Positions 44,945 to 61,605 of a stretch of DNA of 64,000 bases are shown piece by piece (positions within the stretch are counted from its first letter, which is position 1; every line of letters starts with the position of its first letter). Position numbers and translations under genes: made by a program. The stretch comes from Halorussus caseinilyticus. GTDB lineage: Archaea; Halobacteriota; Halobacteria; Halobacteriales; Haladaptataceae. The notes below the pieces were generated by a model. The model had not been told where the DNA came from. It saw nothing but the letters and a program-made list of their open reading frames with translations, and did not search any database. The stretch spans positions 930,001 through 994,000 of the forward strand of contig NZ_CP119809.1 in the NCBI RefSeq assembly GCF_029338395.1. The letters are read 5' to 3'.

Positions 44945-44948
44945 CGTT

Positions 44949-45254: not shown

Positions 45255-45652
45255 TGCTCACCTCCGTCGGTCGCAACTTCGCGCCCGGACGACTCGCCGA
45301 CGACATCTTGGGGCGAACCCTTCTTGTCGGCCGCTTTCGAGCGCAGGGCCGACGTAATCTCGCCGCCTTCGTCGCGGCGGGCCAGCATGACCGCGCCGAC
45401 GAGCGCGGCGACCAGCACGAGGTCGATAATCTCGAAGGGAATCAGGAACCCTTCGCTCGGCACGGCGTTCTGCGCCGGGATGTTGAACATCGCGTAGCCG
45501 ATGCTGGCGGTGATACTCGCGTCGCCGCCGAAACCGCTGGCGGCGTCACCGAACTCCGCACCGACGAACACCCACGCCATCACTGCGAATAGCGCGAGGG
45601 CGGCTACGCCGGGTAACATCCGGCTTCCGTCGTCGTTGGATTTCGTAGTCAT
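45251..45652 (-). CDS. Complex I subunit NuoJ, C-terminal-half protein
   Basis: A 133-residue protein with two membrane helices (about 13-30 and 70-90; LPGVAALALFAVMAWVFVG and FEIIDLVLVAALVGAVMLAR) and a charged tail. It corresponds to the second part of bacterial NuoJ, which is encoded by two genes here. ATG at 45652 overlaps the end of the first nuoJ gene by 4 bases; the longer open frame to 45832 is a shadow of that gene. In haloarchaea this split is usual. Confidence 0.85.
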   Translation of the reverse strand: MTTKSNDDGSRMLPGVAALALFAVMAWVFVGAEFGDAASGFGGDASITASIGYAMFNIPAQNAVPSEGFLIPFEIIDLVLVAALVGAVMLARRDEGGEITSALRSKAADKKGSPQDVVGESSGREVATDGGEQ

Positions 45653-45915
45653 ACCTCTGTCACCTCCTCTGTCGTGGCCTGACGCGTGAGCATCACGGCG
45701 AACGTGATGAGGATGAGAACCCCGCCCACGTAGACGAGGATTTGCATCGCTGCGAGGAACTCGGCCTGCAGCATCACGTAGTGTACCGCGACGGAAAGTA
45801 GCGCGACACCAAGCAGTAACGCCGAGTGCCACACGTCCCGCGCCAGGACGACGCCCAGACTGCTCGCTATCGTGACGAGAGCGAACAACCCGAACGTAAG
45901 TGTCTCGTATACCAT
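45649..45915 (-). CDS. nuoJ: Complex I subunit NuoJ, N-terminal-half protein
   Basis: An 88-residue protein with three membrane helices, including VHYVMLQAEFLAAMQILVYV and VGGVLILITFAVML, the NuoJ core with its pi-bulge region. An AAGGTGA Shine-Dalgarno ends 5 bases before the ATG at 45915, which decides the start over a GTG at 45924. It is the first of two genes for NuoJ and starts 52 bases after nuoI. Confidence 0.9.
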   Translation of the reverse strand: MVYETLTFGLFALVTIASSLGVVLARDVWHSALLLGVALLSVAVHYVMLQAEFLAAMQILVYVGGVLILITFAVMLTRQATTEEVTEV

Positions 45916-45967
45916 TTCAGTCACCTTGAAATTCTAGTAATCGTCCTTTTAAGGTTTCGAGACGGAC

Positions 45968-46429
45968 TTACTGGTAGTCCACCTCGCCTTCGCCCTCGCC
46001 AATCCACGCACTGCGGTCGGGTTCGCGGGATTCGAGGGGGTCTATGTCCTTGTACCACGGGACGTTCTTCAACTGCTCTTTGTTGTACACGAGGTCGTCT
46101 TTCGTGTCGCCCGTGAACTCGAAGTTCTCCGTGAGCAGGATTGCGTCTACGGGGCACACTTCCTCGCACAACCGACAGTAGATGCACTGTCCGATGTGGA
46201 GGTTGTACTGCTCGCCGTTGCGCTGGTCGTCCTGAACGATTTGAATCGTGTCGTTCGGACAGACGTTCTCGCACTGGCGACACCAGATACAGCGCTCTTG
46301 GCTGAACTTGTGGACCCCGCGGAACCGAGGGCTTACTTCGGGTGCCACGTCGGGGTACTCGACCGTGAACGTGGACCCGTCCAGTGCGTGCTTCAGCGTC
46401 GTCGCCATCGATTTCAGTACACCAATCAT
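45968..46429 (-). CDS. nuoI: Complex I subunit NuoI, 2x[4Fe-4S] protein
   Basis: A 153-residue ferredoxin-like subunit. The two clusters are bound by CIWCRQCENVCP and CIYCRLCEEVCP, each with CxxCxxCxxxCP. It passes electrons toward NuoB. The start overlaps the nuoH stop by one base (TAATG). The C-terminal part, WYKDIDPLESREPDRSAWIG, is haloarchaeal. Confidence 0.95.
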   Translation of the reverse strand: MIGVLKSMATTLKHALDGSTFTVEYPDVAPEVSPRFRGVHKFSQERCIWCRQCENVCPNDTIQIVQDDQRNGEQYNLHIGQCIYCRLCEEVCPVDAILLTENFEFTGDTKDDLVYNKEQLKNVPWYKDIDPLESREPDRSAWIGEGEGEVDYQ

Positions 46430-47529
46430 TAGAGCATCACCCCAACGATGACGGCCGTCAGGACGAGGTTAGCGAAGCTCAGGACGAGCATGCCCTTCCA
46501 GCCGATTTCGATGAGTTGGTCGATGCGGACGCGGGGAACCGCCGAACGCGCCCACTGCGTGAACAGGAAGACGGCCCAAATCTTGACGACGAACCAGACG
46601 AAGTTCAACGATTCGGGCAGGAACGGACCGCTCGCGCCGCCGAGGAACAGCGTCGTGATGATTGCTCCGCCGAGGAAGATGTGGAGGAACTCGCCGAGGT
46701 AGAACAGCACGAAGTACACCGACGAGTATTCGGTCTGGTACCCTCCGACGATTTCGGTCGGCGCTTCCGGGATGTCGAACGGATTCCGGCCGACTTCCGC
46801 GAGGTTCGCCACCACGAACAGGATGAACGCGAAGGGGTTCACGAACGCGAACCACGACGGAATCGTGACGCCCGCGATAGTGAACAGCGCCTCCTGCTGG
46901 GCCGCGACGATGCCACTCATCTGGAGCGTGTCGGTGAACAGCACGACCGACGCCGCCGTCACGACGAGCGGAATCTCGTAGGCGATGTTCTGCGCGATTG
47001 CGCGCAGACCGCCCATCATCGAGTACTTGTTACTCGACGCGTAGCCAGCCATCGCCAGTGCGAGCGTCGCGATAGAAGCGACCGCGAACACGTACGCCAT
47101 CCCCGTCTCGGGGTCCGCGAGGTGGATGTTGACGCCGAAAATGTGACCCATCGGAATGACCGCGAACCCGAGCAGTGCCGACCCCGCCATCACGATTGGC
47201 GCGATGTCGAAGGCCGGACGGTCGGCGTTGTCGGGGATGATGAGTTCTTTCCCGAGGAGGCGAACGGCGTCGGCCACGATGATGAGCAGACCCGCGGGAC
47301 CGACCCGGTTGACTGCGATGCGGTCGGTGAACGCCGCGGTAATCTTCCGCTTGGCCCACGGCCCGGCGACGCCCGTCATCGCTAGCATGATGTTGCCGAT
47401 GAGGAACGCGCCGAGGAACGCCGCAATCGCCTCCTGCCACGGGGCCATGTTCGCGCCGAACAGCCACTCCCCGATGGTCTCGGGGAGCAGGGGTTCGGCC
47501 TGACCCTGTAGGGGAACGAACCCGGTCAT
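46429..47529 (-). CDS. nuoH: Complex I subunit NuoH
   Basis: A 366-residue membrane protein with about nine helices. AVNRVGPAGLLIIVADAVRL and ADRPAFDIAPIV mark the quinone-channel loop, and FDIPEAPTEIVGGYQTEYSS is the conserved acidic loop. It links the hydrophilic arm to the proton pumps. Its ATG overlaps the stop of nuoCD by one base. Confidence 0.95.
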   Translation of the reverse strand: MTGFVPLQGQAEPLLPETIGEWLFGANMAPWQEAIAAFLGAFLIGNIMLAMTGVAGPWAKRKITAAFTDRIAVNRVGPAGLLIIVADAVRLLGKELIIPDNADRPAFDIAPIVMAGSALLGFAVIPMGHIFGVNIHLADPETGMAYVFAVASIATLALAMAGYASSNKYSMMGGLRAIAQNIAYEIPLVVTAASVVLFTDTLQMSGIVAAQQEALFTIAGVTIPSWFAFVNPFAFILFVVANLAEVGRNPFDIPEAPTEIVGGYQTEYSSVYFVLFYLGEFLHIFLGGAIITTLFLGGASGPFLPESLNFVWFVVKIWAVFLFTQWARSAVPRVRIDQLIEIGWKGMLVLSFANLVLTAVIVGVML

Positions 47530-49202
47530 TAGCGGTCCACCTCGCCCATGATGGTGTCGAGGCTTCCGATAGTCGCGATGAGGTCGGGCAGGTAGTCGCC
47601 CTGCGTCATCGCCGGGAGCGCCTGCAGGTTCGAGAACGACGGTCCGCGAATCTTGAACCGGCCGGGTTTGTCGGTGCCGTCAGACCGGATGTAGATGCCG
47701 AGTTCGCCCTTGGCGGCCTCGACCGCCTTGTAGATTTCCGTGTCGGGGTCGGGCTTGAGCGTCCGCGGGACGTTCGACTGGATGTTGCGCTCGTCTTCGG
47801 GCCAACTCTCCAGCAGGTCCACGCACTGGCTGACGATTTTGGCCGACTCCTCGATTTCGCGCATCCGGACGAGCAGTCGCGCGTAGTTGTCACAGCCGTC
47901 TTCGGTGACGACGTTCCAGTCGAGTTCGTCGTAGTAGCCGTAGGGGTCGTCCCGGCGCAGGTCGTAGTCGATGCCCGACCCGCGGGCGACCGGTCCCGTA
48001 CAGCCGTACTGCTTGGCGACTTCGGGTTCGATGACTCCCGTGTCGATGGTCCGCTTCTGGAGGATTTCGTTGCGACTCAGCAGGTCGTGGAACTCCTCCA
48101 GCGCGGCGGGCATGTCGTCGATGAACTCCCGAATCTTCTCGAACCACGCTTCGCGGGGTTCGGGCAGGTCCCAGACGACCCCGCCGAGTCGGAAGTAGTT
48201 GAACATCATCCGCTGGCCCGTCAGGTCCTCCAAGATGTTCTGGACCTTCTCGCGCTCTTGGATGCCGTACATGAACGTCGCGGTGAAGTCACCGATAACG
48301 TCTAGCGCGTACGCGCCGACCGCGAGGATGTGCGAGAGGAGACGGCTGAGTTCCGCGCTCAGCGTCCGAATCACCTTCGCGTACTCGGGGACTTCGATGT
48401 CGTTGAGTTCCTCCGCCGCGCGAGCGTAGGCCCACTCGTTGAGCAGTCCCGCGCCGCCCCAGTCCCATCGGTCCGGGTACGGCATTATCTGGTGGCGGTA
48501 GGTGGACTGCTGGCACATCTGTTCGTCGCACCGGTGGATGTAGCCGATGTCCGGCGCGACATCCGCGACCTGTTCGCCGTCGAGCGTCACTTCGAGGTGG
48601 AGAACGCCGTGGGTCGCCGGGTGGTGCGGGCCGATGTTGAGGAACATCGTGTCCGACCCCTCGCCGGACTCGCGGTGGTCGGCCTCCAGCGGGTTGGCGT
48701 TCTCTTCGAACGAGACGATTTGCGGTTTGTCTTGGTCGTAGTCCGAACTCAGCGGGTGGCCCTGCCACGTCTCGGGCAGGAGGATGCGAGTGAGGTTGGG
48801 GTGGTCGTCGTAGTCGATTCCCACCAAGTCGTAGGCCTCGCGCTCGTGCCACTCGGCGGTCTTGTAGACCGGCGTCGCCGACTCGCTGGTCGGGTTCTCA
48901 GCGTCGGTCGGGACGACGACGCTGACCTCTTGGGTCGGGTCGTCGTACTTCTTGAGGTGGTAGATGCTCTCGTAGCGGTCCTCGTAGTCCTGCGCGGTGA
49001 GACACGAGAGGTGGTCGAAGCCCGCTTCGTCGCGGAGCGTCCGGAGGGTCTGTTGAACCTCGTCGGGTCGGACGACGAACCCCTCGGCGTTGAGGTGTTC
49101 CTCGCGGTCGAGGACGCGTTCACCCAGCAGGTCGGCCAGTTCGTCGTAGTCGAGACCGGCCTCCGTGACGCCTACGTCCGGAGTGCGTTCTTCTAAGCTC
49201 AT
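47529..49202 (-). CDS. nuoCD: Complex I fused subunit NuoCD
   Basis: A 557-residue fusion. Residues about 1-165 are the 30-kDa NuoC domain (EREAYDLVGIDYDDHPNLTR), and about 180-557 the 49-kDa NuoD domain (NIGPHHPATHGVLHLEVTLD, DIGYIHRCDEQMCQQSTYRH and the end DLIATIGSLDTIMGEVDR). NuoD lines the quinone pocket; its conserved His/Tyr pair is in the H-P-A-T-H-G region and the DIGYIHRC loop. The fused form is common in haloarchaea. It overlaps nuoB by 4 bases. Confidence 0.95.
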   Translation of the reverse strand: MSLEERTPDVGVTEAGLDYDELADLLGERVLDREEHLNAEGFVVRPDEVQQTLRTLRDEAGFDHLSCLTAQDYEDRYESIYHLKKYDDPTQEVSVVVPTDAENPTSESATPVYKTAEWHEREAYDLVGIDYDDHPNLTRILLPETWQGHPLSSDYDQDKPQIVSFEENANPLEADHRESGEGSDTMFLNIGPHHPATHGVLHLEVTLDGEQVADVAPDIGYIHRCDEQMCQQSTYRHQIMPYPDRWDWGGAGLLNEWAYARAAEELNDIEVPEYAKVIRTLSAELSRLLSHILAVGAYALDVIGDFTATFMYGIQEREKVQNILEDLTGQRMMFNYFRLGGVVWDLPEPREAWFEKIREFIDDMPAALEEFHDLLSRNEILQKRTIDTGVIEPEVAKQYGCTGPVARGSGIDYDLRRDDPYGYYDELDWNVVTEDGCDNYARLLVRMREIEESAKIVSQCVDLLESWPEDERNIQSNVPRTLKPDPDTEIYKAVEAAKGELGIYIRSDGTDKPGRFKIRGPSFSNLQALPAMTQGDYLPDLIATIGSLDTIMGEVDR

Positions 49203-49900
49203 GGCGAATCAGTCCAGTTGTAACGCATTACGAGCGTCTCCTCGTCGATTTCGCCCGCGAGCTTTTCGACAACTTCGTCGCGTTCGAGGTCGCCGAACTG
49301 CTCCAGTTCGTACGGCTTGACCGTCACCGGACTGGTCTCGCCGTTGGCGACTCGCTCCTGCAACTTGACGACGCCGTAGATGAGCGCCTCGGGGCGAGGC
49401 GGGCAACCGGGGACGTGGATGTCCACCGGGATGACCTCCTCGGCACCCTTGATGACGTTGTAGCCCTCTTGGAACGGACCGCCCGAGATGGCACACGAGC
49501 CCATGTTCACGACGAACTTGGGTTCGGGCATCTGGTCGTAAATCCGCTTCATCCGGGGGGCGAACTTCGAGACGATGGTCCCCGGAACAATCATCACGTC
49601 GGCCTGTCGCGGCGACGCGCGGGGAACCCCGGACCCGAAGCGGTCGAGGTCGTGTTTGACCGCGTACGTGTGCATCATCTCGATGCTACAGCACGCGATA
49701 CCGAACTGGAGCATGAACATCGAGGACCCCCGAACCCAGTTCATGAACTTGTCGAACTTCGTGAGGATGAACGGCGACGAGCCGAACGCCTCCCGAAGTT
49801 TGGAGTTGAATCGGTTGTCCACGCCCTCCATCCGGGCTTCCCGTGTTTTCGTCTGCGGGTCTGTGCTACCGTGAATCGTCTCCCGTGGTTCGTTGCTCAT
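49199..49900 (-). CDS. nuoB: Complex I subunit NuoB
   Basis: A 233-residue subunit that carries cluster N2. The cysteine ligands lie in GIACCSIEMMHT, MGSCAISGG and VPGCPPRPE. N2 hands electrons to the quinone. About 50 residues of extra N-terminal sequence precede the core. ATG overlaps nuoA by 4 bases. Confidence 0.95.
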   Translation of the reverse strand: MSNEPRETIHGSTDPQTKTREARMEGVDNRFNSKLREAFGSSPFILTKFDKFMNWVRGSSMFMLQFGIACCSIEMMHTYAVKHDLDRFGSGVPRASPRQADVMIVPGTIVSKFAPRMKRIYDQMPEPKFVVNMGSCAISGGPFQEGYNVIKGAEEVIPVDIHVPGCPPRPEALIYGVVKLQERVANGETSPVTVKPYELEQFGDLERDEVVEKLAGEIDEETLVMRYNWTDSP

Positions 49901-50310
49901 TGTCTATCGACGCTCCGTTGGGAACGGTCGGGATTTCGTACCCACCGTACGGCACCGTTACGCCACGCCCAGCCGAGACCGACGGCGAGGACGCCGATGA
50001 ACAGCAACATCGGAAGCAGGCCCTTCGTCAGGCCCACGCCGTCCATCGAGACCGCGCTCCGGTAGATGACCGTCCAAGGGAAGATGAGAACGGTCTCGAT
50101 GTCGAAGACGACGAACAGCAACGCGACCATGTAGTACTGTATGTTGAAGCGGATTCGCGTGCCGCCCGTCGGCACTTCGCCGCTCTCGTAGGTGGTGGTT
50201 TTTCCTTTTTCGGGCACGGTGGGCCGGAGCAGGCTGGATACCGCCATCATTCCGACCGGTATCAACAGCCCCACCAGCGCCAACGCGCCAATAGCTATCC
50301 ATGGATTCAT
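49897..50310 (-). CDS. nuoA: Complex I subunit NuoA
   Basis: A 137-residue protein with three membrane helices (about 5-27, 65-85, 95-115); TTYESGEVPTGGTRIRFNIQYYMVALLFVVFDIE is represented by its conserved pieces YESGEVP and FVVFDIETV. It is the first gene of the operon. A GGAG Shine-Dalgarno about 8 bases before the ATG, and a TATA-like CTTATAGG (about 50351-50358), place the transcription start some 20 bases upstream. Confidence 0.93.
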   Translation of the reverse strand: MNPWIAIGALALVGLLIPVGMMAVSSLLRPTVPEKGKTTTYESGEVPTGGTRIRFNIQYYMVALLFVVFDIETVLIFPWTVIYRSAVSMDGVGLTKGLLPMLLFIGVLAVGLGWAWRNGAVRWVRNPDRSQRSVDRQ

Positions 50311-50681
50311 GCCGATATTCTCCTACCATCCCGAGATTAGAAACGCACCCCTATAAGCGTTGATTCTTACGCTTCCTTCGTCTTAGGCCGGAAAACTACT
50401 CGTATTCCCGGTGATGGTTTCTCTCGGATTGAATCAAATATAGAACCCGGCCACATTTGGTGACAAATTACGTGAGGAACGTCAATCGTCAGTTCGGTTG
50501 TGTCCGTCGCGCCCGAAAATATAAAAGTCCCAACCCCTACCGGCGGAAAATAGGCGTTGGAGCGTTGTTTCCCTACTGTCTCCGGAGTCCATTACATAAC
50601 GAGCTAGTCATACTCCAAAAATACATACCGGAATACTTTTATATATTTTGAATCACAGGGTAATAACGACGTGAACCATTT
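50311..50681. promoter_or_regulatory. Divergent control region between nuo and the biosynthetic cluster
   Basis: No convincing gene is seen in these 371 bases; a 64-codon frame at 50457-50651 runs through the promoter. The nuo promoter is at about 50351-50358 (minus). On the plus side CTTTTATATATTTT (50636-50649) lies 33 bases before the methyltransferase ATG, and a second TATA-like AAAATATAAAAGTC is near 50516-50529. TTTTGAATC (50646-50654) recurs before the first P450. Confidence 0.55.
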
Positions 50682-51569
50682 ATGAGTAAACACAAACAGC
50701 GAGATGGCATAAACACCGAGAAAACGTCGAACGACGACGTACGAGACTACTACTCACAGTGTCACTCCATCTATCACGAGAAGTGGTCGGACGACAGCGA
50801 CAGAGAGAGCATCCACTACGGATACTTCGACGAGGGGACCGAAACCCTCGGCGAGGCTGTCCACAACATGAAGTCGAAACTCGCCGACAGCGTGGACCTC
50901 GGTCCCGACGACCGAGTGCTGGACTGTAGTGGCGGGTACGGCGACAACGCGACGTGGCAGGCCAAAGAGCGCGGCGCGGAAGTCGTCGGCCTGAACATCA
51001 GTCCCCTCCAGTTGAGTTACGCCCGCGAACTGGCGAAAGAGCGCGGCGTGGACGACAAAGTCGAGTTCCGCGAGGACGACTTCACCAAGATGGAGACGGT
51101 AGAGGACAACTCCTTCGACGTGGTGTGGGGTCTCGAATCCATCTGCTACGCCGACGACAAGCGCGAGTTCCTCGAACAGGCCAAGCGCGTCCTCAAGGAC
51201 GACGGTCGAATCGTCGTCACCGACTGGTACATGGAGAAGCGAGACCTCTCGTTCATCGAGGACCTGATGGTCACCCAGTGGTTGAAGGGATGGCGACTGA
51301 GCAACTACGCTCACATCGACGACTTCCAAGACGACCTCGCGGACCTCGGGTTCGAGAACATCACTTCCGAGAACGCCGAGGACAACATCATGAAGTCGGC
51401 GTTCGACATCTTCCTGTTTAGTCTCTGGGGCTATCCGCTCGGAAAACTGCTGAACTTCTTCGGACGCCAGAACGACACCGAACTCGGCAACGCGGTGGCC
51501 TGTTTCTACCAGTATCCCGCGCTCAAGAGCGACGCCGTGACCTACAGTATCGTTTCCGCCGAACTGTAG
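50682..51569 (+). CDS. SAM-dependent methyltransferase (tocopherol/sterol MT-like)
   Basis: A 295-residue class I methyltransferase. Motif I VLDCSGGYGD (79-88) has Ser-Gly-Gly-Tyr where most have Gly-Cys-Gly. GLNISPLQLSYARELA (103-118), HYGYFDEGTETLGEA (45-59) and VVWGLESICYADDKREFLEQ fit the gamma-tocopherol/sterol methyltransferase-like group, which add methyl to rings or hydrophobic compounds. It opens a run of AT-rich-promoted genes with two P450s; the acceptor is unknown. No membrane helix is seen, though the C terminus (FLFSLWGYPLGKLLNFFG) is fairly hydrophobic. Confidence 0.82.
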   Translation: MSKHKQRDGINTEKTSNDDVRDYYSQCHSIYHEKWSDDSDRESIHYGYFDEGTETLGEAVHNMKSKLADSVDLGPDDRVLDCSGGYGDNATWQAKERGAEVVGLNISPLQLSYARELAKERGVDDKVEFREDDFTKMETVEDNSFDVVWGLESICYADDKREFLEQAKRVLKDDGRIVVTDWYMEKRDLSFIEDLMVTQWLKGWRLSNYAHIDDFQDDLADLGFENITSENAEDNIMKSAFDIFLFSLWGYPLGKLLNFFGRQNDTELGNAVACFYQYPALKSDAVTYSIVSAEL

Positions 51570-51603
51570 TTTCGGTGTGTTTTTGTAAGAATTACCAGAA
51601 CAC

Positions 51604-51626
51604 TTATTATATTATAGTTTTGAATC
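51604..51626 (+). promoter_or_regulatory. Promoter of the first P450 gene
   Basis: TTATTATATTATAG (51604-51617) is followed by TTTTGAATC (51618-51626), the same order as before the methyltransferase. GTAA-GAA-TTAC, a short inverted repeat, is just upstream at 51585-51595. The ATG is at 51635. Confidence 0.5.
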
Positions 51627-51634
51627 CCTCTCGA

Positions 51635-52969
51635 ATGAAACAGTCGAAACCACCGGGACCGGATGGTGTCCCCTTACTTGGAAACGCAATCGACTACGTA
51701 AAGAATCCCTTCGAATTTCGGGAAGAGTGTACCGAAAAGTACGGCGGGCTAATCTACACCGAGGCGGGGAGCAAGCCGATGTACATGGTGACCGACCCCA
51801 AGTACATCGAAGAGGTTCTCGTCACGAAAAACGAGAAGTTCCTCAAACCGCAGTTGATGCAGAAGCGACTCAACAAGGTGTTCGGCGACGGACTGTTGCT
51901 GAGCGAAGGCGACTTCTGGCGGAAAAACCGCGAAGTCGCCCAGCCAGCGTTCTACAGCGACCGAGTGACCGACTACGCCGACACGATGGTCGAACACGCC
52001 GAGCGGACAGTCGAGAAGTGGACGCCCGGCGAGACGTACGACATCGCCCACGAGATGGAACGCCTCGCGGTCGAAATCCTCATGGAGGCGCTGTTCAATC
52101 AGGACCGGGAGTTCGAAGAGAGCGCCATCGGCGAGGCGGTCCACTCCATCAGCGAGAAGTACGACCCCACGAACCCCTCGTGGTACGTGCCCAACTGGGT
52201 GCCGACCCCGGTGAACCGCCAGTACGAGGGGGCCGTCGAGAACCTCGAAGACGACGTGGACGACATCGTTCGCCACCGCAAGGAGAACGACGAGAATCCC
52301 GACGACTTGCTCAAACTACTGCTGGAGGCGAAAAACGACGACGACCACCAGATGGACGGCGACTTGCTCCGCGACGAAATCAACACGATTCTGCTCGGCG
52401 GGAGCGGTCCGATGGGACTCGCACTGACCTACTCGTGGTACCTGCTCTCGAAGAACCCCGAGAAGCGCGAGAAGTTGACCGACGAACTCGACGAGATACT
52501 CGGCGGCGACTCGCCGACGGTCGAAGACGTTCGGGAGTTCGAGTACACCGAGTGGGTCCTCAAGGAGTCGATGCGCCTCTACCCCCCGGTGTGGACGCTC
52601 GGCCGTGAACCGTCCGAAGACGTGGAAATCGGCGGCTACACGATTCCCGAGGGGGCGGCCGTGAACCTGACGCCGTGGTCGGTCCACCGCGACTCGGCCC
52701 ACTACGACGACCCCGAGGCGTTCCGTCCCGAGCGGTGGGCCGAGGAAGTCGCCGACGAGCGCCCGGAGTACTCGTACTTCCCGTTCGGCGGCGGTCCCAG
52801 ACAGTGTATCGGCAGACACTTCTCGATGCTTCAGGGCCAACTCGTCCTCTCGACGCTCGCTCAGGAGTACGAACTCGAACTGGTGTCCGACGAGGACCTC
52901 GACCTGAAAATATCGACCATCATCGAACCGAAAGACGGCATCGACATGGTCGTGCGAGAGCGGGAGTGA
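51635..52969 (+). CDS. Cytochrome P450 with atypical helix I
   Basis: A 444-residue soluble P450. Heme motif [12 protein letters not shown] with proximal C391, ExxR at E311-R314 (KESMRLYPP) and FRPERW in the PERF region are normal. Helix I reads [16 protein letters not shown]: where P450s have Gly-x-(Asp/Glu)-Thr-(Thr/Ser), this one has Gly258-Pro259-Met260. The acid/alcohol pair that delivers protons to bound oxygen is absent, so the enzyme may isomerise, use peroxide or act on an oxygenated substrate. No membrane anchor is present. Start ATG at 51635; the longer frame begins before the promoter. The next gene begins one base after the stop. Confidence 0.9.
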
Positions 52970-52970
52970 G

Positions 52971-54113
52971 ATGGAGCGAATCGCTATCGTCGGCGGCGGA
53001 ATCGCGGGACTCTGTACCGCCGCATCACTGACCGACCGGGGGTTCGACCCGGTGGTCTACGAAGCGGCCGACGAACCCCAACCGGCGGACGCGGGCATCT
53101 GGATACCTCCGAACGGGATGGACGTTCTCGACCGACTCGGGGTCGCCGACCGAATCTGCGAACGCGGCGTCCCCCTCGAACGGACGCTGGTCGAGGACGT
53201 GGCCGGCGCGACCATCTTCGACCTCGACCTGACCGCGGTCGAAGACACGTACGGCCACACCATCGTCTCGACGCACCGCGAGGAGTTACAGGCGGCGTTG
53301 CTCGGGGAGATTCCCGACTCCGCCGTCGAGACCGGTCGGCAATGTACCGGCGTCGAACAGGACGAGGCGTCGGCAACGCTCCAATTCGCGGACGGCGGGA
53401 CTGCGAGCGCCGACGTGGTTGTCGGCGCGGACGGCGTGGAGTCGGACCTCAGAGCCGACCTGTTTCCCGAGGTGTCGCTACGGGACTCGGGAAGCGTCTG
53501 TTACGCCGCGACGACCGACGTGGAACTCCCGGCGTCGTCCCGCCGGATGGACCGCGCGATTTGGGGCCGAGGCAAGCGGTTCGGATACTCGGCGCTCGGC
53601 GACGGCCGGTCGTACTGGTTCGCACCGATAAACGGGTCGTTAGACCCCGTAGGGGGCGGCAACCCAGTCGAACGACTCGCGGAGTGCTACGCGGACTTCC
53701 CGGCCCCGGTGGGCGAACTTATCGCCGGGACCGACCCAGAGCGCGTCGCTCGCGTCGAGATGCGGGACTTCGACCCGATAGAAGAGTGGTCGCGCGGCCG
53801 GGTCGTCCTCGCGGGTGACGCCGCACACGCCATGCTCCCCAACCTCGCGCAGGGCGGCGCGCAGGCCCTCGAAGACGGGTTCGCGCTGGCGAAGTGTCTC
53901 GACGAACGCGCGTCACACCGGCGCGCGTTCGAGACCTACGAGGAGTTGCGCCTCGACAAGGCCCGAGAGATGGTCGAACAGTCGAGACAGCGAGGGAAGG
54001 TGGCCCAACTGGAGAACGGTATCCTCAGTCGCGTGCGGAACGTGATACTCGGCAACCTGCCGGAGTTCGTCAACGAGAAGTTCGAGACCGACATGTACGA
54101 GATGACGTTTTGA
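52971..54113 (+). CDS. FAD-dependent monooxygenase (PHBH/UbiH/ZEP-like)
   Basis: A 380-residue class A flavoprotein monooxygenase. GGGIAG (8-13) begins the dinucleotide fold, VGADGVESDLR (151-161) is the DG motif, and AGDAAHAMLPNLAQGGAQA (281-299) the GD motif. It would use NAD(P)H and oxygen to hydroxylate or epoxidise an aromatic or polyene compound; the family includes salicylate hydroxylase, UbiH and zeaxanthin epoxidase. It begins one base after the first P450 stop, so these two are co-translated. Confidence 0.88.
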   Translation: MERIAIVGGGIAGLCTAASLTDRGFDPVVYEAADEPQPADAGIWIPPNGMDVLDRLGVADRICERGVPLERTLVEDVAGATIFDLDLTAVEDTYGHTIVSTHREELQAALLGEIPDSAVETGRQCTGVEQDEASATLQFADGGTASADVVVGADGVESDLRADLFPEVSLRDSGSVCYAATTDVELPASSRRMDRAIWGRGKRFGYSALGDGRSYWFAPINGSLDPVGGGNPVERLAECYADFPAPVGELIAGTDPERVARVEMRDFDPIEEWSRGRVVLAGDAAHAMLPNLAQGGAQALEDGFALAKCLDERASHRRAFETYEELRLDKAREMVEQSRQRGKVAQLENGILSRVRNVILGNLPEFVNEKFETDMYEMTF

Positions 54114-54204
54114 CGCCACCGCCTCCGGTGATTCTTCGTACACTTCATCAGACGAACCGGTAACCGTAAATTGTATCTTCTTTTGATTTAGACAATAGAA
54201 AAAG

Positions 54205-55575
54205 ATGGCATCTAATCGCGATGATACGACAGAAAAAAGTCAGGAATCGGACGACCCGCCGGGTCCCGACGGGTTTCCGGTCATCGGTAATCTCCCGGAC
54301 CTCTTTCAGGACCAACTCGGTCTCTACGAGCGGTGTGCCGAGGAGTACGGCGACGTAGTTCGCGTCGACGTGGGGGGCGAGGAGTTCTACCACGTCACCC
54401 ACCCGGAGTACATCGAGCAGATACTCGTCAAAGACGACGCCAAGTACGTCAAGGGCGACTTCCAGCAGGAGGCGCTGGCGGGCGTCACCGGCGACGGGTT
54501 GTTCCTGAGCGAGGGCGAACAGTGGGAGCGCCAGCGGAAGATTATCCAACCGGCGTTCTTCCACGAGCGGGTGGACGAGGAGTACACCCAGATGATGACC
54601 GAGTACGCCGAGTCGCTGACCGACGACTGGGAGGACGGCCAGCGCATCTCGCTCCACGAGGAGATGCGGGCGCTCACCCTCCAGATTCTGGCCAAGACCC
54701 TGACCGGGCAGGACATCCGGAACAAGGAGACTGCAATCGGTGACGCCGGACACGCGATTACCGCGAAGTTCGGCGGGTCGAAGTCGTCGGTGTTCCTCCC
54801 CGACTGGCTTCCGACTCCGACGAACATCCGGTACAAGCGCACGCTCCAGCAGTTCACCGAGGTCATCGACGGGATGATACAGGAACGGAAGTCCGACGAC
54901 ACCGACCGCATCGACCTGCTGTCCATCCTTCTCGACGCCGAGGCCGACGACGGGAGTCAGATGTCGGACAAGACGGTCCGCGACCAGATTTTCTCGTTCC
55001 TGCTGGCGGGCCACGAGACGACTGCGCTCACCTTGACCTACTCGTGGTACCTGCTCTCGAAGAACCCCGAGAAGCGCGAAAAGTTGGTCGCCGAAATCGA
55101 CGAGGTACTCGACGGCCGGACGCCGACGATGCAGGACTTGGACGAACTCGACTACCCCGACAAGGTGGTCAAGGAGTCGATGCGCCTCTACCCGCCGGTG
55201 TACAACTTCTTCCGGGAACCCGTGACCGACGTGGAAATCGGCGGCTACGAGATTCCGGAGGGAGCGACCCTTTCGCTCCCCCAGTGGGTCGTCCACCGCG
55301 ACGAGCGATGGTACGACGACCCCGAGGAGTTCCGCCCCGAGCGATGGGCCGAGGAGTTGGAGGACGAGCGCCCGGACTACTCGTACTTCCCGTTCGGCGG
55401 CGGTCCGCGCCACTGCATCGGGATGCGCTTCGCCCGCATCGAGGCCCAACTGGTGCTGGCGACGGTGGCACAGGAGTTCGAACTCGAACTCGCCGAGGAA
55501 GACCCCTTGGAACTCGTCGCCGCCATCAACATCCAACCGAAAGACGAGATTCCGGTGCGCGTCGAGAAGCGTTAG
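54205..55575 (+). CDS. Cytochrome P450 (canonical helix I)
   Basis: A 456-residue P450. Heme motif [12 protein letters not shown] with C404, ExxR at E324-R327, helix I LLAGHETTALTLTYSW with E271-T272 as normal acid/alcohol pair. It shares with the P450 at 51635 the run [18 protein letters not shown], so they are recent paralogues. The first 20 residues are charged and probably flexible. It has its own AT-rich promoter (54165-54200). Substrate unknown. Its 3' end overlaps the VOC gene on the other strand by 4 bases. Confidence 0.92.
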   Translation: MASNRDDTTEKSQESDDPPGPDGFPVIGNLPDLFQDQLGLYERCAEEYGDVVRVDVGGEEFYHVTHPEYIEQILVKDDAKYVKGDFQQEALAGVTGDGLFLSEGEQWERQRKIIQPAFFHERVDEEYTQMMTEYAESLTDDWEDGQRISLHEEMRALTLQILAKTLTGQDIRNKETAIGDAGHAITAKFGGSKSSVFLPDWLPTPTNIRYKRTLQQFTEVIDGMIQERKSDDTDRIDLLSILLDAEADDGSQMSDKTVRDQIFSFLLAGHETTALTLTYSWYLLSKNPEKREKLVAEIDEVLDGRTPTMQDLDELDYPDKVVKESMRLYPPVYNFFREPVTDVEIGGYEIPEGATLSLPQWVVHRDERWYDDPEEFRPERWAEELEDERPDYSYFPFGGGPRHCIGMRFARIEAQLVLATVAQEFELELAEEDPLELVAAINIQPKDEIPVRVEKR

Positions 55576-56129
55576 GCGTCGGGTCGGTCCGACCAGTCGT
55601 CGGCCGGTCCGTACAGTCGGTCGTCGGCGGACTCGGCGTAGGGCATCGTCTCGGGCGCTTCGAGCAGTTCGAGTTGGTAGCCCCACGGCGCGGTGAAGTA
55701 GACGTAGGTCAGGCCGCCGGTGGGTCCCTCCTCGTTGTGCTGGGGCGTGCCGAGAATCTCGACGCCCTCGACGCCTTCGAGATAGTCGATGGCCGCGTCG
55801 ATGTCCTCGACCTGAATCCCGAGGTGACTCGCGCCCACGTCGCTGTTGCTCGGGTGGCCTTCTTCTTGGTCGGGCGAGTCCCACTCGAACAGTTCGAGGT
55901 TGGTCGTCGGCCCGAACCGGAGCATCGCCAGTTGTCCCTCCGCCTCGGGGTGGACGTTCAGGTTGGTCTCCATGAACTCGGGGTCGGCGAACGGACCCTT
56001 CTCGTAGAGCAGTTCGGCACCGAGAACGTCAACGAAGAAGTCCACTGCCTCGTCCAAGTCGGGGACAGTGATACTGACGTGGTGGACGTTACGTGCCGTC
56101 GGAACGCCGGAGCGTGACTCGTCGGACAT
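55572..56129 (-). CDS. VOC-fold (glyoxalase/dioxygenase-like) protein
   Basis: A 185-residue protein with two beta-alpha-beta-beta-beta units. RNVHHVSITVPDLDEAVDFF opens the first and ASHLGIQVEDIDAAIDYLEG the second; PWGYQLELLEAPE closes it. His in the first strand, His in the second and Glu near the end are candidate metal ligands. The family covers glyoxalase I, epimerases and extradiol dioxygenases. It is the only minus-strand gene in the cluster. ATG at 56129 is preferred to the longer frame from 56189 because the latter has no domain content. Confidence 0.8.
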   Translation of the reverse strand: MSDESRSGVPTARNVHHVSITVPDLDEAVDFFVDVLGAELLYEKGPFADPEFMETNLNVHPEAEGQLAMLRFGPTTNLELFEWDSPDQEEGHPSNSDVGASHLGIQVEDIDAAIDYLEGVEGVEILGTPQHNEEGPTGGLTYVYFTAPWGYQLELLEAPETMPYAESADDRLYGPADDWSDRPDA

Positions 56130-56221
56130 ACGGGTGACTCGGGCCACGCGGCCCAAATCGTTTTTGTGTTGAGTCGGCGGGGACACCACATTCCTCAGGA
56201 AAGATTGGTATCTAGAACCGA

Positions 56222-56231
56222 AAATAATATC
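56222..56231 (+). promoter_or_regulatory. TATA-like promoter of the DHQ-synthase-II-like gene
   Basis: AAATAATATC lies about 25-34 bases before the ATG at 56256, in an AT-rich island 56205-56255. Confidence 0.45.
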
Positions 56232-56255
56232 ATCTTATATTTGCTCCTAAACCGT

Positions 56256-57317
56256 ATGGAACGAGAACGAAATAAGGAATTCTGGCTCGATGCCCGACGA
56301 TTTTTAGACGGGAACAGCAGTGTCGTCGCGGCAGGGTTCAATACCCTCGTAGACGCCCTTTTGGTCACTCCCGACCAGCGAGAGCAGTTCAGTCTCCCGG
56401 CGCGCACGGCGGCGGCCATCGAAGTCGAGAACGTAGACGACCTCGCAACCGTCGAGGACGGTGCAATCGTCGTCTCGTCCCACGCGGAGTGTCTCCGGCG
56501 AGCGAGCGAACAGGGGTTCCGGACGGGGTACCTGCCGCCGACGAACGGGGAGTTCGACCCCGAATCGGCGCTCGACTTGCTCGAAGGGAGCGCGGAGTAC
56601 GGCATCTTCAACGGCGAAGCGCCCGAGGGATTCGAAGACGAACTCGGCGGCGCGGCGACGATACTCCGGCACGCGTCCAGTGCGGAGGCGGCGAAAAGTC
56701 GGCTAGACGGGTCGGCGGCGAGCGGGGGTGCACTGCTCTCGACCCGCGACGCACAGGACGTGTACGACGTTGGAAACGCGCTACTCAGGGAGTACCGCGG
56801 GGAAATCGCGGTCGAACCCCTCGAAATCACGCGGGTCGAACAGGTCGGCGTCGGCGAGCGAAGTTGCGTGGACGTGACTTCGCTGTTCTCGAAAGACGAG
56901 GGGATGGTCGTCGGTTCGACCGGCGACGGCGGGTTGTTCGTCTGTTCGGAGGCCCACTCTCCGCCGAACATGAGTCCGCGGCCGTTTCGGGTCAACGCCG
57001 GGTCGGTCCACGCCTACGTCAACGTCGCGGACGACGAGATAGAGTATCTGACCGAACTCTCGACAGGCGACGAAGTGCTGTGCGTCGATAAGGACGGTAA
57101 CACGCGACCCGCCTCCATCGGGCGCAAGAAGACCGAGACCCGACCGCTGTTGCTCGTGGAAGCGACGGCTGGCGACCGGACCGTCGAAGCAGTGTTGCAG
57201 GACCACTGTCACGTCCGACTGATGGGTTCCGACGGGGAACCTCTCAACGTCACGGAAGCGTCGGTGGGCGACGAAGTGTTGGGTCACGTCCGAACGGCCG
57301 GAGATGCTGGCGATTAA
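56256..57317 (+). CDS. Divergent 3-dehydroquinate synthase II paralogue
   Basis: A 353-residue protein whose second half (about 189-353) is clearly archaeal 3-dehydroquinate synthase II: LEITRVEQVGVGERSCVDVT, KDEGMVVGSTGDGGLFVC, RPFRVNAGSVHAYV (242-255), then YLTELSTGDEVLCVDKDGNT. The first half is more diverged; the opening EFWLDARRF differs from the WLKA-type start remembered for the normal enzyme. The normal enzyme uses NAD to deaminate and cyclise a C7 amino sugar; the bacterial relative GriH makes 3-amino-4-hydroxybenzoate. A role in making a ring precursor for this cluster is inferred. Confidence 0.82.
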   Translation: MERERNKEFWLDARRFLDGNSSVVAAGFNTLVDALLVTPDQREQFSLPARTAAAIEVENVDDLATVEDGAIVVSSHAECLRRASEQGFRTGYLPPTNGEFDPESALDLLEGSAEYGIFNGEAPEGFEDELGGAATILRHASSAEAAKSRLDGSAASGGALLSTRDAQDVYDVGNALLREYRGEIAVEPLEITRVEQVGVGERSCVDVTSLFSKDEGMVVGSTGDGGLFVCSEAHSPPNMSPRPFRVNAGSVHAYVNVADDEIEYLTELSTGDEVLCVDKDGNTRPASIGRKKTETRPLLLVEATAGDRTVEAVLQDHCHVRLMGSDGEPLNVTEASVGDEVLGHVRTAGDAGD

Positions 57318-57397
57318 TTCGGCGGTCGGTTGGGATTCGTTCGATATGAACCGTATAAGTAGAAATAAGTAAGCGGTGAGGAAACACCAACAGCACG

Positions 57398-58240
57398 ATG
57401 AGTCAACTTCTCACAGACAAGACGGCGGTCGTCACGGGCGCGGCCAGCGGTAACGGTCGCGCCATCGCACGACGGTTCGCCGAGGAAGGCGCGGACGTGG
57501 TTATCGCCGACGTACAGACCGAACCGCGGGAGGGCGGGCGTCCGACCCACGAGAAAATCGAGGCCGAGACGGACGCTCGGGCGACGTTCGTGGAGTGCGA
57601 CGTGAGCGAACGTGCGGACGTGAAGCGCGCAGTCGAGGCGGCCGACGAGTTCGGTGGTCTCGACGTGATGGTCAACAACGCGGGCATCTCCGGACCCGAA
57701 AAGTCGTTCGTGGACCTCGAACAGGCCGAGTTCGAGAAGTTGATGCACGTGAACCTCAACGGCGTCTTCTACGGGTGTCAGGAGGCCGCCCTGAAGATGA
57801 TAGCCCAAGGCGAGGGCGGGAGCATCATCAACATGTCGAGCGCCGGGGGACTCGTCGGGGTGCCCGACGCCTCGGCCTACTCGACGGCGAAGGGTGGCGT
57901 CCGCCTGTTGACCTACTCGCTCGCGGCCGAACTCGGCGAAGACGGGATTCGGGTGAACACGCTCCACCCCGGCGTCATCGAGACGGCGATGACGAAACGC
58001 GACGGGTCGATAATCGGGAGCGGTCGGAAAGAACTGCTGAAGCGCGGAGACGTGTCGTTCAAACAACTGATAAAGGGAAGTGTAAGAGGAGAAATAATAA
58101 AGCGCCACGCGATTCCGCTCTCGGAGTTCGGCGACCCCAAGCACGTCGCCGACGCCGCCGTCTTCCTCGCTTCGGACCTCTCGGAGTACATCTCCGCGGA
58201 GTCGATTGCGGTGGACGGTGGGATGGTCAACACCGCCTAA
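57398..58240 (+). CDS. Short-chain dehydrogenase/reductase
   Basis: A 280-residue SDR. TGAASGNGRAIARRF (13-27) binds NAD(P), NNAG is at 93-96, and the catalytic Ser147/148, Tyr161 and Lys165 (YSTAK) are present; D38 after the second strand favours NAD. Residues about 212-238 (LLKRGDVSFKQLIKGSVRGE) form an insert before the usual C-terminal part, and its DNA (58050-58107) is AT-rich unlike the rest. GTATAAGT (57352-57359) and a GGTGAGG ribosome site precede it. The substrate is an alcohol or ketone not known. Confidence 0.87.
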   Translation: MSQLLTDKTAVVTGAASGNGRAIARRFAEEGADVVIADVQTEPREGGRPTHEKIEAETDARATFVECDVSERADVKRAVEAADEFGGLDVMVNNAGISGPEKSFVDLEQAEFEKLMHVNLNGVFYGCQEAALKMIAQGEGGSIINMSSAGGLVGVPDASAYSTAKGGVRLLTYSLAAELGEDGIRVNTLHPGVIETAMTKRDGSIIGSGRKELLKRGDVSFKQLIKGSVRGEIIKRHAIPLSEFGDPKHVADAAVFLASDLSEYISAESIAVDGGMVNTA

Positions 58241-58268
58241 TTCGGGAAGGGACTTCGAGAACAATACA

Positions 58269-58280
58269 TTTTTATAAAAC
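58269..58280 (+). promoter_or_regulatory. TATA-like promoter of the ThuA-like gene
   Basis: TTTTTATAAAAC lies about 19-30 bases before the ATG at 58299. Confidence 0.5.
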
Positions 58281-58298
58281 TTTCATAATTGGTAAGAT

Positions 58299-59021
58299 AT
58301 GACTGTTCACGTTACTGTTTGGAACGAATATCGGCACGAACGCGAAGATGACGAGATACGAGACCGGTATCCCGACGGGATTCACGGTGCTATCGCGGAC
58401 GGGATTCGCGGCGACGACTTCGAAATCGAGACTGCCACGCTGGACGAACCGGAACACGGGCTAACCGAGTCGCGCCTCGACGCGACGGACGTGTTGTTCT
58501 GGTGGGGCCACGCCGCTCACGACGAGGTTGACGACGAGGTAGTCGAACGAGTCAAAAGACACGTCCGCGACGGCATGGGTCTCGTCGTCCTCCACTCCGG
58601 ACAGGGGTCGAAGATATTCGGCGAACTACTCGGTACCACCGGCGAGGTCAAGTGGCGAAACGACGGCGAACGCGAGCGCCTCTGGGTCATCGACCAAGGC
58701 CACCCCATCGCCGACGGACTCGACGAGTACATCGAGATTCCGGCGGCGGCGACGTACGGCGAACCCTTCGACGTGCCCGAACCCGACTCGCTCGTGTTCG
58801 TGAGTTGGTTCGAGGGCGGCGAGGTGTTCCGGAGCGGTTGCTGTTACCGGCGCGGGAAGGGCCGCATCTTCTACTTCCGGCCGGGCGACGAGGCGTATCC
58901 GATTTACCACAACGAGGACGTTCACGACGTGTTGACCAACGCCGCGAAGTGGGCCGCACCCCGCGAAGGGTCGCCCGTCGAGTACGGCGAAGTCGAGATT
59001 CCCCCGGAAGCGTCGGAATAG
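58299..59021 (+). CDS. ThuA-like protein
   Basis: A 240-residue protein of the ThuA (class-I-glutaminase-like) fold. [10 protein letters not shown] opens it, [33 protein letters not shown] and [20 protein letters not shown] follow in the family order, and [21 protein letters not shown] ends the core. ThuA proteins are linked to sugar oxidation and conversion of keto-sugars, but the reaction is unclear. It has its own TATA box and sits between the SDR and the membrane protein. Confidence 0.83.
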
Positions 59022-59052
59022 TGTCGCCAAAAGTATCAAAAATTACTTTTAC

Positions 59053-59067
59053 ATAGTAACTTACTAT
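59053..59067 (+). promoter_or_regulatory. Perfect 15-bp palindrome, candidate operator
   Basis: ATAGTAA-C-TTACTAT is a perfect inverted repeat placed between the TATA-like ACTTTTACA (59044-59052) and the ATG at 59075, so it covers the expected transcription start. Such a position suits a repressor. Confidence 0.55.
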
Positions 59068-59074
59068 AAATTGC

Positions 59075-59824
59075 ATGTCATACGAATCGAACAATAACTC
59101 CGACCCGACGCCGGAAGGCTTCACCTACAGTCTCGTCCACTCGCTGGTATCTCCCTACTGGCAGTTCAACATCCTCGAAGTGAGTTACATGAGCATGGGG
59201 ATGGTGCTGGCGGCGGTCAACCACGACTGGAGTTGGCAACTCTGGGCCATCGCCATGCCGTTCATGTGGTTCGCTGGCGAGGGAGCCAACAATCTGGACC
59301 TCGCCGACGAGGGCATGACCGTGGACATCGACTCGCGGGTTCAGTACGCGGTTGGCTACCTGATGCTCGGGGCCGCAGTCGTCCTCGGGGGCGTGCTGTC
59401 GTGGATGACCTCGTGGTGGTTCTTCTCGTTCGTCGTCCTCGGGGCGTTCGGGGCCGTGGCGTACAACCTCGAACTGTTCGACGGCCGACTTCACGACCGA
59501 GAGTACGTCACGGGCGTCGGCAACCTCGGGTTCACCGCCGCGTGGATTCCGACCGTCTCGGGGTACTTCCTGCTCTCGCCCGAGTTCGACGTGCAACTGC
59601 TCGGGGTCTCCATCTTCTCGTTCGGCCTGATGCTCATCCTGATGGCCATCGACTACGTGACCGAGGACCTGAAAGAACAGAAGTACGAGGCGTTCGACAT
59701 CGAGTACACCCGCGACGTGGACGCGAAACTCGAACGACTCCAGCGCCGGGCGGCCAAGCAACACCCGATGCACAACTACGCGCTGTTGATTATGGCGGTC
59801 GGACTCGCGCTGATGTTCCTCTGA
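59075..59824 (+). CDS. Multi-spanning membrane protein, possibly UbiA-superfamily
   Basis: A 249-residue protein with about seven membrane helices. After helix 2 comes AGEGANNLDLADEGMTVDID, reminiscent of the Asp-rich first motif of UbiA prenyltransferases, and after helix 5 or 6 AIDYVTEDLKEQKYEAFD could be a degenerate second motif. LGNLGF-type glycine loops (VTGVGNLGFTAAWIPTVSGY) also fit. Neither motif is canonical, so prenyl transfer is only a hypothesis. It is last in the cluster, preceded by a palindromic operator-like site and convergent with purE. Confidence 0.6.
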   Translation: MSYESNNNSDPTPEGFTYSLVHSLVSPYWQFNILEVSYMSMGMVLAAVNHDWSWQLWAIAMPFMWFAGEGANNLDLADEGMTVDIDSRVQYAVGYLMLGAAVVLGGVLSWMTSWWFFSFVVLGAFGAVAYNLELFDGRLHDREYVTGVGNLGFTAAWIPTVSGYFLLSPEFDVQLLGVSIFSFGLMLILMAIDYVTEDLKEQKYEAFDIEYTRDVDAKLERLQRRAAKQHPMHNYALLIMAVGLALMFL

Positions 59825-59827
59825 CGG

Positions 59828-60463
59828 TCACTCCCGGTCGGCCCGGAACTGTTCGGTTCCGCTCTCGTGAAGTCTGCGCGAAACGTCCGCCACTCCTTCC
59901 TGCAAGTCGTCGTGGTACTCCACGAGCCTGTCGCGCAGTTCGTCGTGTTCCCGCGAGAGCATCTGTACCGCCGACAGCGCGGCGTTGAACGACTTGCCCG
60001 CGTCCACCGCGACGATTGGCGCGCCCGTTGGCATCCCCACCACCGAGGGCAGGGACTTCTCTTGGACCGGCACGCCGACGACCGGCAGGGGATAGGCCAG
60101 CGAAGCGGTCATGTTGGGCAGGTCGGCGGACTTGCCGCCAGCACCCGCGATAATCACGTCGAGTCCGCGCGCTTCCGCGGTTTCGGCGTAGGCGTACATC
60201 AGTTCGGGCGTGCGATGGGCCGACACCACGTAAGTCTCGAAGGTGAACCGGGCCTCGGGCGGGTCGTCGTAGTCGGTCACTTCCTCGAACCCGAGTTCGG
60301 TCAGGGCGTCGTACGCGCCGGGTCGTCCGTCCTCGGACCCGGCCATCACGTCGAGGTCCGAGTCGCTCCCCATCACGATGCCGATTTCGGGCGTCTCTTC
60401 GGTACTTCTGTCGCGCTCTGCCTCCGCTCGCAGGTCGTCGATGAGTGCTTGGAGTTCGCTCAT
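59828..60463 (-). CDS. purE: N5-carboxyaminoimidazole ribonucleotide mutase
   Basis: A 211-residue PurE. GIVMGSDSDLDVM and VVSAHRTPELM are the substrate loops, and IIAGAGGKSADLPNMTASL and GKSFNAALSAVQML the rest of the active site. It moves a carboxylate to form CAIR in purine synthesis. An insert of about 25 residues (GSEDGRPGAYDALTELGFEE) between the first two motifs makes it longer than bacterial PurE. Its ATG overlaps the purK stop by 4 bases. Confidence 0.95.
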   Translation of the reverse strand: MSELQALIDDLRAEAERDRSTEETPEIGIVMGSDSDLDVMAGSEDGRPGAYDALTELGFEEVTDYDDPPEARFTFETYVVSAHRTPELMYAYAETAEARGLDVIIAGAGGKSADLPNMTASLAYPLPVVGVPVQEKSLPSVVGMPTGAPIVAVDAGKSFNAALSAVQMLSREHDELRDRLVEYHDDLQEGVADVSRRLHESGTEQFRADRE

Positions 60464-61605
60464 TGGAATGTCACCTCGTCGCGCAGTTCGCGGGCCGCGT
60501 CGAGTAGTTCGTCGGTGTCGCTCTCGCAGTCGCCGACCACGGTCAGGTGGCCCATCTTCCGCAGGGGGTAGACCTCGTGTTTGCCGTACCAGTGATAGCT
60601 CGCGCCGGGGGCGGCGAGAATCGCCTCGTCGCCCGAGACCTCGGCCTGTCGGCGTTCGTCGCCGTCGCCCAGCAGGTTCGCCGACACCACGGGACTCCGG
60701 AGGTCGGTCGCGCCGAGGGGTCGGCCGGTCACGGCGCGGACGTGTTGCTCGAACTGGGAGGTCAGCGCGCCCTCGATGGTGTAGTGGCCCGAGTTGTGGG
60801 GCCGGGGCGCGATTTCGTTGACCAGAATCTCCCCTTCCGTCGTCTCGAAGAGTTCGATGCCGTAGACCCCTCGGCCGTCCAGCATCGCCAGCACGTCCTC
60901 GGCCACCTCGCGGGCGCGCTCTGCGACCGCTTCGTCGGTCCGGGCCGGAACGACCGTCTCGCGCAGAATCTCCTCGCGGTGGACGTTCTCGCCGAGCGGG
61001 AAGGTCGCGGTTTCGCCGTCGCCTTTCACGCCGATTATCGACACCTCGCGCTCGAAGTCCACGAACTCCTCTGCCACCGCGCCGCCTTCGACCTGCGCCA
61101 GCGCGTCGTCCACCTCGCTCTCGTCGGCGATGGGGACGTTACCCCGGCCGTCGTACCCGCCCTCGCGGGCCTTCAGCATGACGGGATAGCCGAAGTCCTC
61201 GATGGCGTCCGCCAAGTCCTCGCGGTCGTCCACCTGCCGGAAGTCGGGGACCGGAACCCCGGCGTCCCGCAGGGCGCGGTTCTGGACCAACTTGTCCTGA
61301 ATCGTCCGGAGGGTGGCGGGGTCGGGGTTGACCGCCACGCCGTACTCGTCTTCGACCGCCGCCAACAGGTCGGGGTCGGCCAACTCGATTTCGTAGGTCA
61401 GGTAGTCGGCGCGTTCGGCCAACTCCCGAACGCCGTCCTCGTCGTCGAAGTCGCCGACGATTTGGTCCCGTGCCACCGGCGAGGCCGGGCAGTCGGGCGT
61501 CGGGTCGAGGACGACCACCTCGACTCCGAGGGGTGCGGCCGCCTCCGCCAGCATCCGACCGAGCTGTCCGCCGCCGACGACGCCGAGCGTCTCTGTGTCG
61601 GTCAT
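60460..61605 (-). CDS. purK: N5-carboxyaminoimidazole ribonucleotide synthase
   Basis: A 381-residue ATP-grasp enzyme. VVGGGQLGRMLAEAA opens the N-terminal domain, GYDGRGN is the glycine-rich ATP loop, and VNEIAPRPHNSGHYTIEG the Mg-binding end. It joins bicarbonate to AIR with ATP, giving the PurE substrate. TATA-like AATCTTATGC (minus strand, 61631-61640) lies 26 bases before the ATG. purK-purE is a two-gene operon. Confidence 0.96.
   Translation of the reverse strand: MTDTETLGVVGGGQLGRMLAEAAAPLGVEVVVLDPTPDCPASPVARDQIVGDFDDEDGVRELAERADYLTYEIELADPDLLAAVEDEYGVAVNPDPATLRTIQDKLVQNRALRDAGVPVPDFRQVDDREDLADAIEDFGYPVMLKAREGGYDGRGNVPIADESEVDDALAQVEGGAVAEEFVDFEREVSIIGVKGDGETATFPLGENVHREEILRETVVPARTDEAVAERAREVAEDVLAMLDGRGVYGIELFETTEGEILVNEIAPRPHNSGHYTIEGALTSQFEQHVRAVTGRPLGATDLRSPVVSANLLGDGDERRQAEVSGDEAILAAPGASYHWYGKHEVYPLRKMGHLTVVGDCESDTDELLDAARELRDEVTFQ

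Follow-up and report, generated by a model that had tools for sequence, protein, structure and literature searches.

A diverged GriH-type homologue of DHQ synthase II in a rare gene island of Halorussus caseinilyticus

Within the 64,000-nucleotide stretch of Halorussus caseinilyticus DNA analyzed here (positions 930,001 to 994,000 of NZ_CP119809.1, hereafter the window), the open reading frame at 56256–57317 on the forward strand encodes a 353-residue protein that we regard, with about an even chance of being right, as a horizontally acquired GriH-type enzyme with shifted chemistry, carried in a rare specialized-metabolite island. The frame contains no internal stop, and the ATG is a better start than the alternative GTG upstream at 56166 because homologues begin at a WxDxR stretch. 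The protein matches Pfam DHQS (PF01959; 2.8e-68) over residues 135–348 with 230.8 bits against a cut-off of 22.2, and this curated score places it in the DHQ synthase II superfamily.

The genome encodes two DHQ synthase II homologues. Besides this one there is a standard housekeeping copy of full length (G000:C1:456985-458142; 447.5 bits on Pfam DHQS and 739 bits on the archaeal NCBIfam model, cut-off 629). A protein search across 391 Halobacteria genomes found a DHQ synthase II match in 390, representing the housekeeping copies, and a second copy in only two, the source genome and Haloarcula pellucida JCM 17820; a narrow contig scan across genomes with two motif patterns returned two loci. 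We placed these two special haloarchaeal proteins in a tree of 34 sequences together with 25 archaeal housekeeping DHQ synthases II and seven bacterial homologues, a small bacterial sample drawn from plasmid records and one MAG. In the full-length tree, a branch with 100/99 support unites the special pair with all seven bacterial homologues to the exclusion of the 25 archaeal housekeeping proteins, and the same 100/99 split is recovered from the C-terminal half of the 34-protein set alone. The special pair itself groups together with support of 95/77 at full length and 96/86 in the C-terminal half. Because its branches are long (2.2 and 5.0 in the full-length tree), its placement within or beside the bacterial group is uncertain and depends on the root. 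A tree constrained to join the pair to the haloarchaeal housekeeping proteins is worse by 37.6 log units and is rejected by the AU test (p-AU 0.0027). On this phylogenetic evidence the origin of the 353-residue protein is a bacterial GriH-type lineage and not a duplicate of the haloarchaeal housekeeping gene. A redundant housekeeping DHQ synthase II produced by duplication within haloarchaea would account for two members of one superfamily in one genome; it is nevertheless highly improbable, being ruled out by the AU test and disfavored by the absence of two housekeeping motifs (GEGDGT and QNAETIK) and by a second copy in just 2 of 391 haloarchaea. The first-pass annotation had called the gene a paralogue, which is apt insofar as the genome holds a second DHQ synthase II but misplaces its source. 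That annotation would have been contradicted by a sole DHQ synthase II grouping within the housekeeping clade; our phylogeny instead puts the protein outside that clade (100/99), in a genome with another copy.

Sequence features divide the two groups along the same line. The 353-residue protein begins with WLDAR, lacks the GEGDGT loop and carries QDHCHVR, all GriH-type traits, and none of the housekeeping counterparts (WxKAD, the GEGDGT loop and QNAETIK) is present. The H. pellucida copy has these three GriH-type features in common with it. The match to the GriH-type signature is partial: the WxDxR start and the missing loop conform, while QD[DN]WHVR reads QDHCHVR, with Cys in place of Trp. 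A full C-terminal signature of archaeal DHQ synthase II had previously been claimed for this gene; this is only partly right, as QNAETIK is replaced by QDHCHVR and the RHxG....E...E motif is missing. In the N-terminal half, described in the same annotation as diverged, residues 1–134 give no Pfam DHQS match and conservation is poor, yet the half is homologous by profile comparison: hhalign reports 100% probability over 338–343 columns against both the housekeeping and the bacterial groups, with the bacterial group (2e-58) slightly ahead of the housekeeping group (5e-52).

Both special haloarchaeal copies are missing two motifs, IPLExxIA and the RHxG....E...E stretch at the C-terminus, that the housekeeping sequences and nearly all of the bacterial ones compared possess, and the 353-residue protein is also altered at Y238, T207, E153 and G155. 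We considered a frameshift or wrongly annotated end as the cause of the missing RHxG motif and rejected it after reading the other frames, in which the motif is likewise absent. These losses, together with the poorly conserved N-terminal half, could point to a non-catalytic or regulatory remnant that has abandoned DHQ-synthase-type catalysis for another role or is decaying. We consider such a remnant unlikely, since 38 of 52 family-wide invariant positions are kept, almost all of them in the C-terminal domain, where nearly the full set survives, and both haloarchaeal copies are intact reading frames with common derived features. The loss of two family-wide motifs does make it probable that the exact reaction has shifted from that of GriH.

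The 3,4-AHBA synthases of Streptomyces are known as GriH, BagC, FevH, NspH and AhbH (PMC6692506, PMC10179220), and GriI and GriH together convert aspartate semialdehyde and DHAP into 3,4-AHBA (PMC10179220, PMC8697445). The bacterial homologues in our tree look GriH-type. In Streptomyces, Klebsiella and the Bacillota MAG, a gene for an ADH synthase or GriI-like protein adjoins the homologue, and an adenylate-forming enzyme is usually encoded nearby. In Streptomyces, FAD-dependent oxygenases also accompany GriH-type genes. The Sinorhizobium medicae plasmid is an exception, in that no ADH synthase or aldolase lies beside its DHQ synthase II homologue (L059 5338-6525), which sits in an NRPS-like cluster that also encodes a cobalamin-dependent protein as well as AMP-binding and adenylation-domain proteins.

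3,4-AHBA synthase activity of the 353-residue protein is possible. A true 3,4-AHBA synthase, working exactly like GriH on a substrate from the housekeeping ADH synthase or another aldolase, would agree with the GriH-type signature and clade and with the FAD-dependent oxygenases, GriA among them, beside GriH-type genes in Streptomyces. We rate it rather unlikely. Beyond the two lost motifs, the protein scores 154.6 bits on NCBIfam BagC_FevH (NF041224, cut-off 750) and 195.4 bits on NF002625, the subfamily that contains GriH (cut-off 375), whereas the Streptomyces homologues score 366–453 and 474–515 bits, respectively; in Pfam and NCBIfam, it reaches no curated family cut-off other than that of the Pfam superfamily. 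Nor is there a GriI-type partner: the island (50376–59855) contains no GriI-type aldolase, ADH synthase or adenylate-forming enzyme, and the genome has one ADH synthase (TIGR01949, 360 bits), located in a trp gene neighborhood, and no second. The earlier idea of a GriH-like ring maker is thus supported with respect to lineage and, in part, signature, and less so with respect to GriH activity.

The gene lies in an island of about 9.5 kb (50376–59855), whose nine genes stand between nuoA (start 50310) and purE (59828). Upstream of it on the forward strand are genes for a SAM-dependent methyltransferase (50682–51569; Pfam Methyltransf_31, 1.2e-19, with no NCBIfam equivalog cut-off reached), a cytochrome P450 (51635–52969; Pfam p450, 8.1e-87), an FAD-dependent monooxygenase of the aromatic hydroxylase type (52971–54113; Pfam FAD_binding_3, 1.1e-31) and a second P450 (54205–55575; Pfam p450, 1.4e-96), followed on the reverse strand by a VOC/glyoxalase-fold protein (55572–56129; Pfam Glyoxalase, 2.7e-15). 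Downstream, again on the forward strand, lie genes for a short-chain dehydrogenase/reductase (57398–58240; Pfam adh_short_C2, 3.5e-63), a ThuA-family protein (58299–59021; Pfam ThuA, 5.3e-31) and a membrane protein that may be a very remote UbiA relative (59075–59824). The P450 neighbors noted in the first-pass annotation are present. The FAD monooxygenase resembles the NCBIfam models for HpxO, 3-hydroxybenzoate 6-monooxygenase and salicylate monooxygenase, in each case below the cut-off. We tried ThuA as an island marker and dropped it, as a homologue occurs in 242 of 382 haloarchaeal genomes (best identity 60–70%); with so wide a distribution, its presence says little.

The flanking nuo (complex I) operon (39860–50310) and purE-purK (59828–61605; identified by tblastn with congeners), both on the reverse strand, are neighbors in relatives. 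The gap between purE and nuoA measures about 340–520 bp in the congeners G502 and G172 and about 190 bp in the family member G123, and blastn of the two congeners' empty sites matches only 49860–50375 and 59856–60516, ending there or slightly inside. Since nuoA and purE adjoin in relatives with no intervening genes and the alignments end at the junctions, about 9.5 kb has been inserted. GC content falls to 0.54–0.57 at the left end of the island, the DHQ-synthase-like and ThuA genes have the lowest GC3 among the genes measured (0.76–0.78), and no tRNA lies near the island. Elsewhere in the window, inspection by eye picked out a possible secreted amidase-like protein with a twin-arginine-like start (34062–34670, reverse strand).

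The membrane protein is the rarest component, its family occurring in 3 of 391 haloarchaeal genomes, H. caseinilyticus, H. pellucida and G104, and family-level surveys of 28, 125 and 146 genomes returned no further carriers. Its copies (59075–59824; L042 8427-9236 in H. pellucida; L055 15267-16007 in G104) always lie near a P450. The H. pellucida island contains, within about 9 kb, ThuA, the DHQ-synthase-like gene, a nuoB-nuoCD copy, two methyltransferases (one of them UbiE-like), the membrane protein and a P450; the main nuo-purE junction of that genome is intact. Its ThuA gene is frameshifted or mis-sequenced in the draft, as matches fall in two frames (L042 2864-2712 and 2662-2120). In G104, which belongs to another family, the island (L055-L056, G104:C11) again occupies the nuoA-purE junction, which may be a recurrent insertion site, and encodes an SSF symporter, the membrane protein, a P450, an MMPL exporter and a TetR protein. 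The G104 genome has no second DHQ-synthase-like gene; the membrane protein/P450 module thus does not require the enzyme. The horizontal distribution of the island and the tailoring enzymes encoded in it support recruitment for specialized metabolism, as the first-pass annotation proposed, and the 353-residue protein probably helps to make a natural product.

The neighborhood also raises the prospect that the enzyme builds the ring of a variant quinone, respiratory or membrane-borne, in which case a membrane prenyltransferase, hydroxylases and the methyltransferase would complete a product used by the adjoining complex I. NuoB and NuoCD are the complex I subunits that form the quinone site, and this account would fit the adjacency of the island to nuo in H. 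caseinilyticus and G104, the diverged nuoB and nuoCD copy and UbiE-like methyltransferase of the H. pellucida island, and the weak similarity of the membrane protein to UbiA. However, that homology is not established by profile comparison, as hhalign gives 18.6% against UbiA where held-out UbiA proteins give 97–99% and other membrane proteins less than 1%; Pfam UbiA scores are 17.9 bits (59075–59824) and 21.6 bits, below the cut-off of 34.2. The nuo operon of H. caseinilyticus is ordinary for the genus, and the adjacency can reflect a mere insertion site because congeners keep nuo without the island. Furthermore, the MMPL exporter and TetR protein of the G104 island look more like provisions for an exported product, and lone nuoCD copies occur elsewhere in both the H. 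caseinilyticus and H. pellucida genomes. We therefore hold a quinone role to be quite improbable. A related scheme, a non-shikimate route to a lipid-linked aminobenzenoid (aminoquinone-like, for example) in which a GriH-type ring from the ADH pathway would be lipidated by a new membrane-transferase family and would feed or modulate complex I, is a long shot.

Several further observations concern these genes. The weak UbiA signal coincides in position in the H. caseinilyticus and G104 membrane proteins, two of the three in the family; the structure model of the membrane protein is poor (pLDDT 44.6), and a Foldseek search with it gave no significant hits. The diverged nuoB and nuoCD of H. pellucida (L042 4493-6843, G299:C3) lie inside the island without nuoA or the remainder of complex I, and this nuoB has a far longer branch than ordinary nuoB. 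We rejected a complex I dedicated to the island, as the nuoB of H. caseinilyticus is 91–94% identical to that of congeners and the G299:C3 nuoB is not like it. The complete nuo operon of H. caseinilyticus is homologous to those of H. pellucida and G104. The additional nuoCD genes that stand alone, apart from every nuo operon, are at L048 11027-12814 and L050 7553-9319; a second nuoB-nuoCD-nuoI set is present in a relative from the same family (L111, G123:C6, 3095-5831), and the genomes G503 and G326 each have a second nuoB.

For the substrate, product and pathway order of the island, we infer the following scheme for the favored reading of an acquired GriH-type enzyme with shifted chemistry. 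The sole housekeeping ADH synthase would supply a C7 amino sugar from aspartate semialdehyde, which the 353-residue enzyme would cyclize without the NAD+-dependent deamination of housekeeping DHQ synthase II. The product is predicted to be a ring bearing an amino group, for example 3-amino-4-hydroxybenzoate or a closely related compound, and the FAD monooxygenase, two P450s, SDR and methyltransferase would then decorate it. Attachment or handling of a lipid part may fall to the membrane protein.

Natural-product pathways known from archaea are few, and in the open-licence literature searched we found no GriH-type enzyme described from haloarchaea. In archaea the C7 amino sugar is already produced on the way to aromatic amino acids, so that acquisition of a single ring maker of bacterial type could channel it into a new aromatic compound. 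The two haloarchaeal copies, which lack two otherwise invariant motifs, also offer a test of which residues DHQ synthase II and GriH need, in a family for which a PDB sequence search finds no solved relative; the structure model of the 353-residue protein is poor (pLDDT 56.8), and the structural matches of that model are meaningless.

Set beside named systems, the 353-residue protein resembles the GriH group, as judged on the Streptomyces homologues beside GriI-like genes, in superfamily, WxDxR start, missing GEGDGT loop and QD..HVR, and its gene is likewise set among tailoring oxygenases. It differs from that group in having no GriI-type aldolase partner, in lacking IPLExxIA and RHxG..E..E, and in its archaeal host, and it is only about 35% identical over full length to one Streptomyces homologue. 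It belongs to the same superfamily as housekeeping archaeal DHQ synthase II (MJ1249 and OE1475F; PMC4162585) and resembles it in most of the C-terminal domain, but it falls outside that clade (100/99) and has neither the GEGDGT loop nor WxKAD, QNAETIK or the RHFG motif of the C-terminus. In that archaeal pathway, ADH synthase and DHQ synthase II convert ASA and DKFP to DHQ (PMC4162585), and NAD raises the activity of MJ0400 with MJ1249 from 4.8 to 226.8 (data tabulated in PMC4162585). The Bacillota MAG.313 homologue (JAKSCU010000378.1, L063) is a full-length match and, by identity (35–36%), the most similar of the sequences in the full-length tree; unlike the 353-residue protein's gene, it adjoins genes for an ADH synthase and an adenylate-forming enzyme, and it has the family-wide motifs. 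The H. pellucida JCM 17820 protein (NZ_BMOU01000003.1, G299:C3), the sole other haloarchaeal copy found, is 35% identical over nearly the full length and adjoins the nuoB-nuoCD copy. Its island lacks the FAD monooxygenase, VOC and SDR neighbors, but the two genes share ThuA, the rare membrane protein, a P450 and methyltransferases as neighbors, and their products share the same motif losses.
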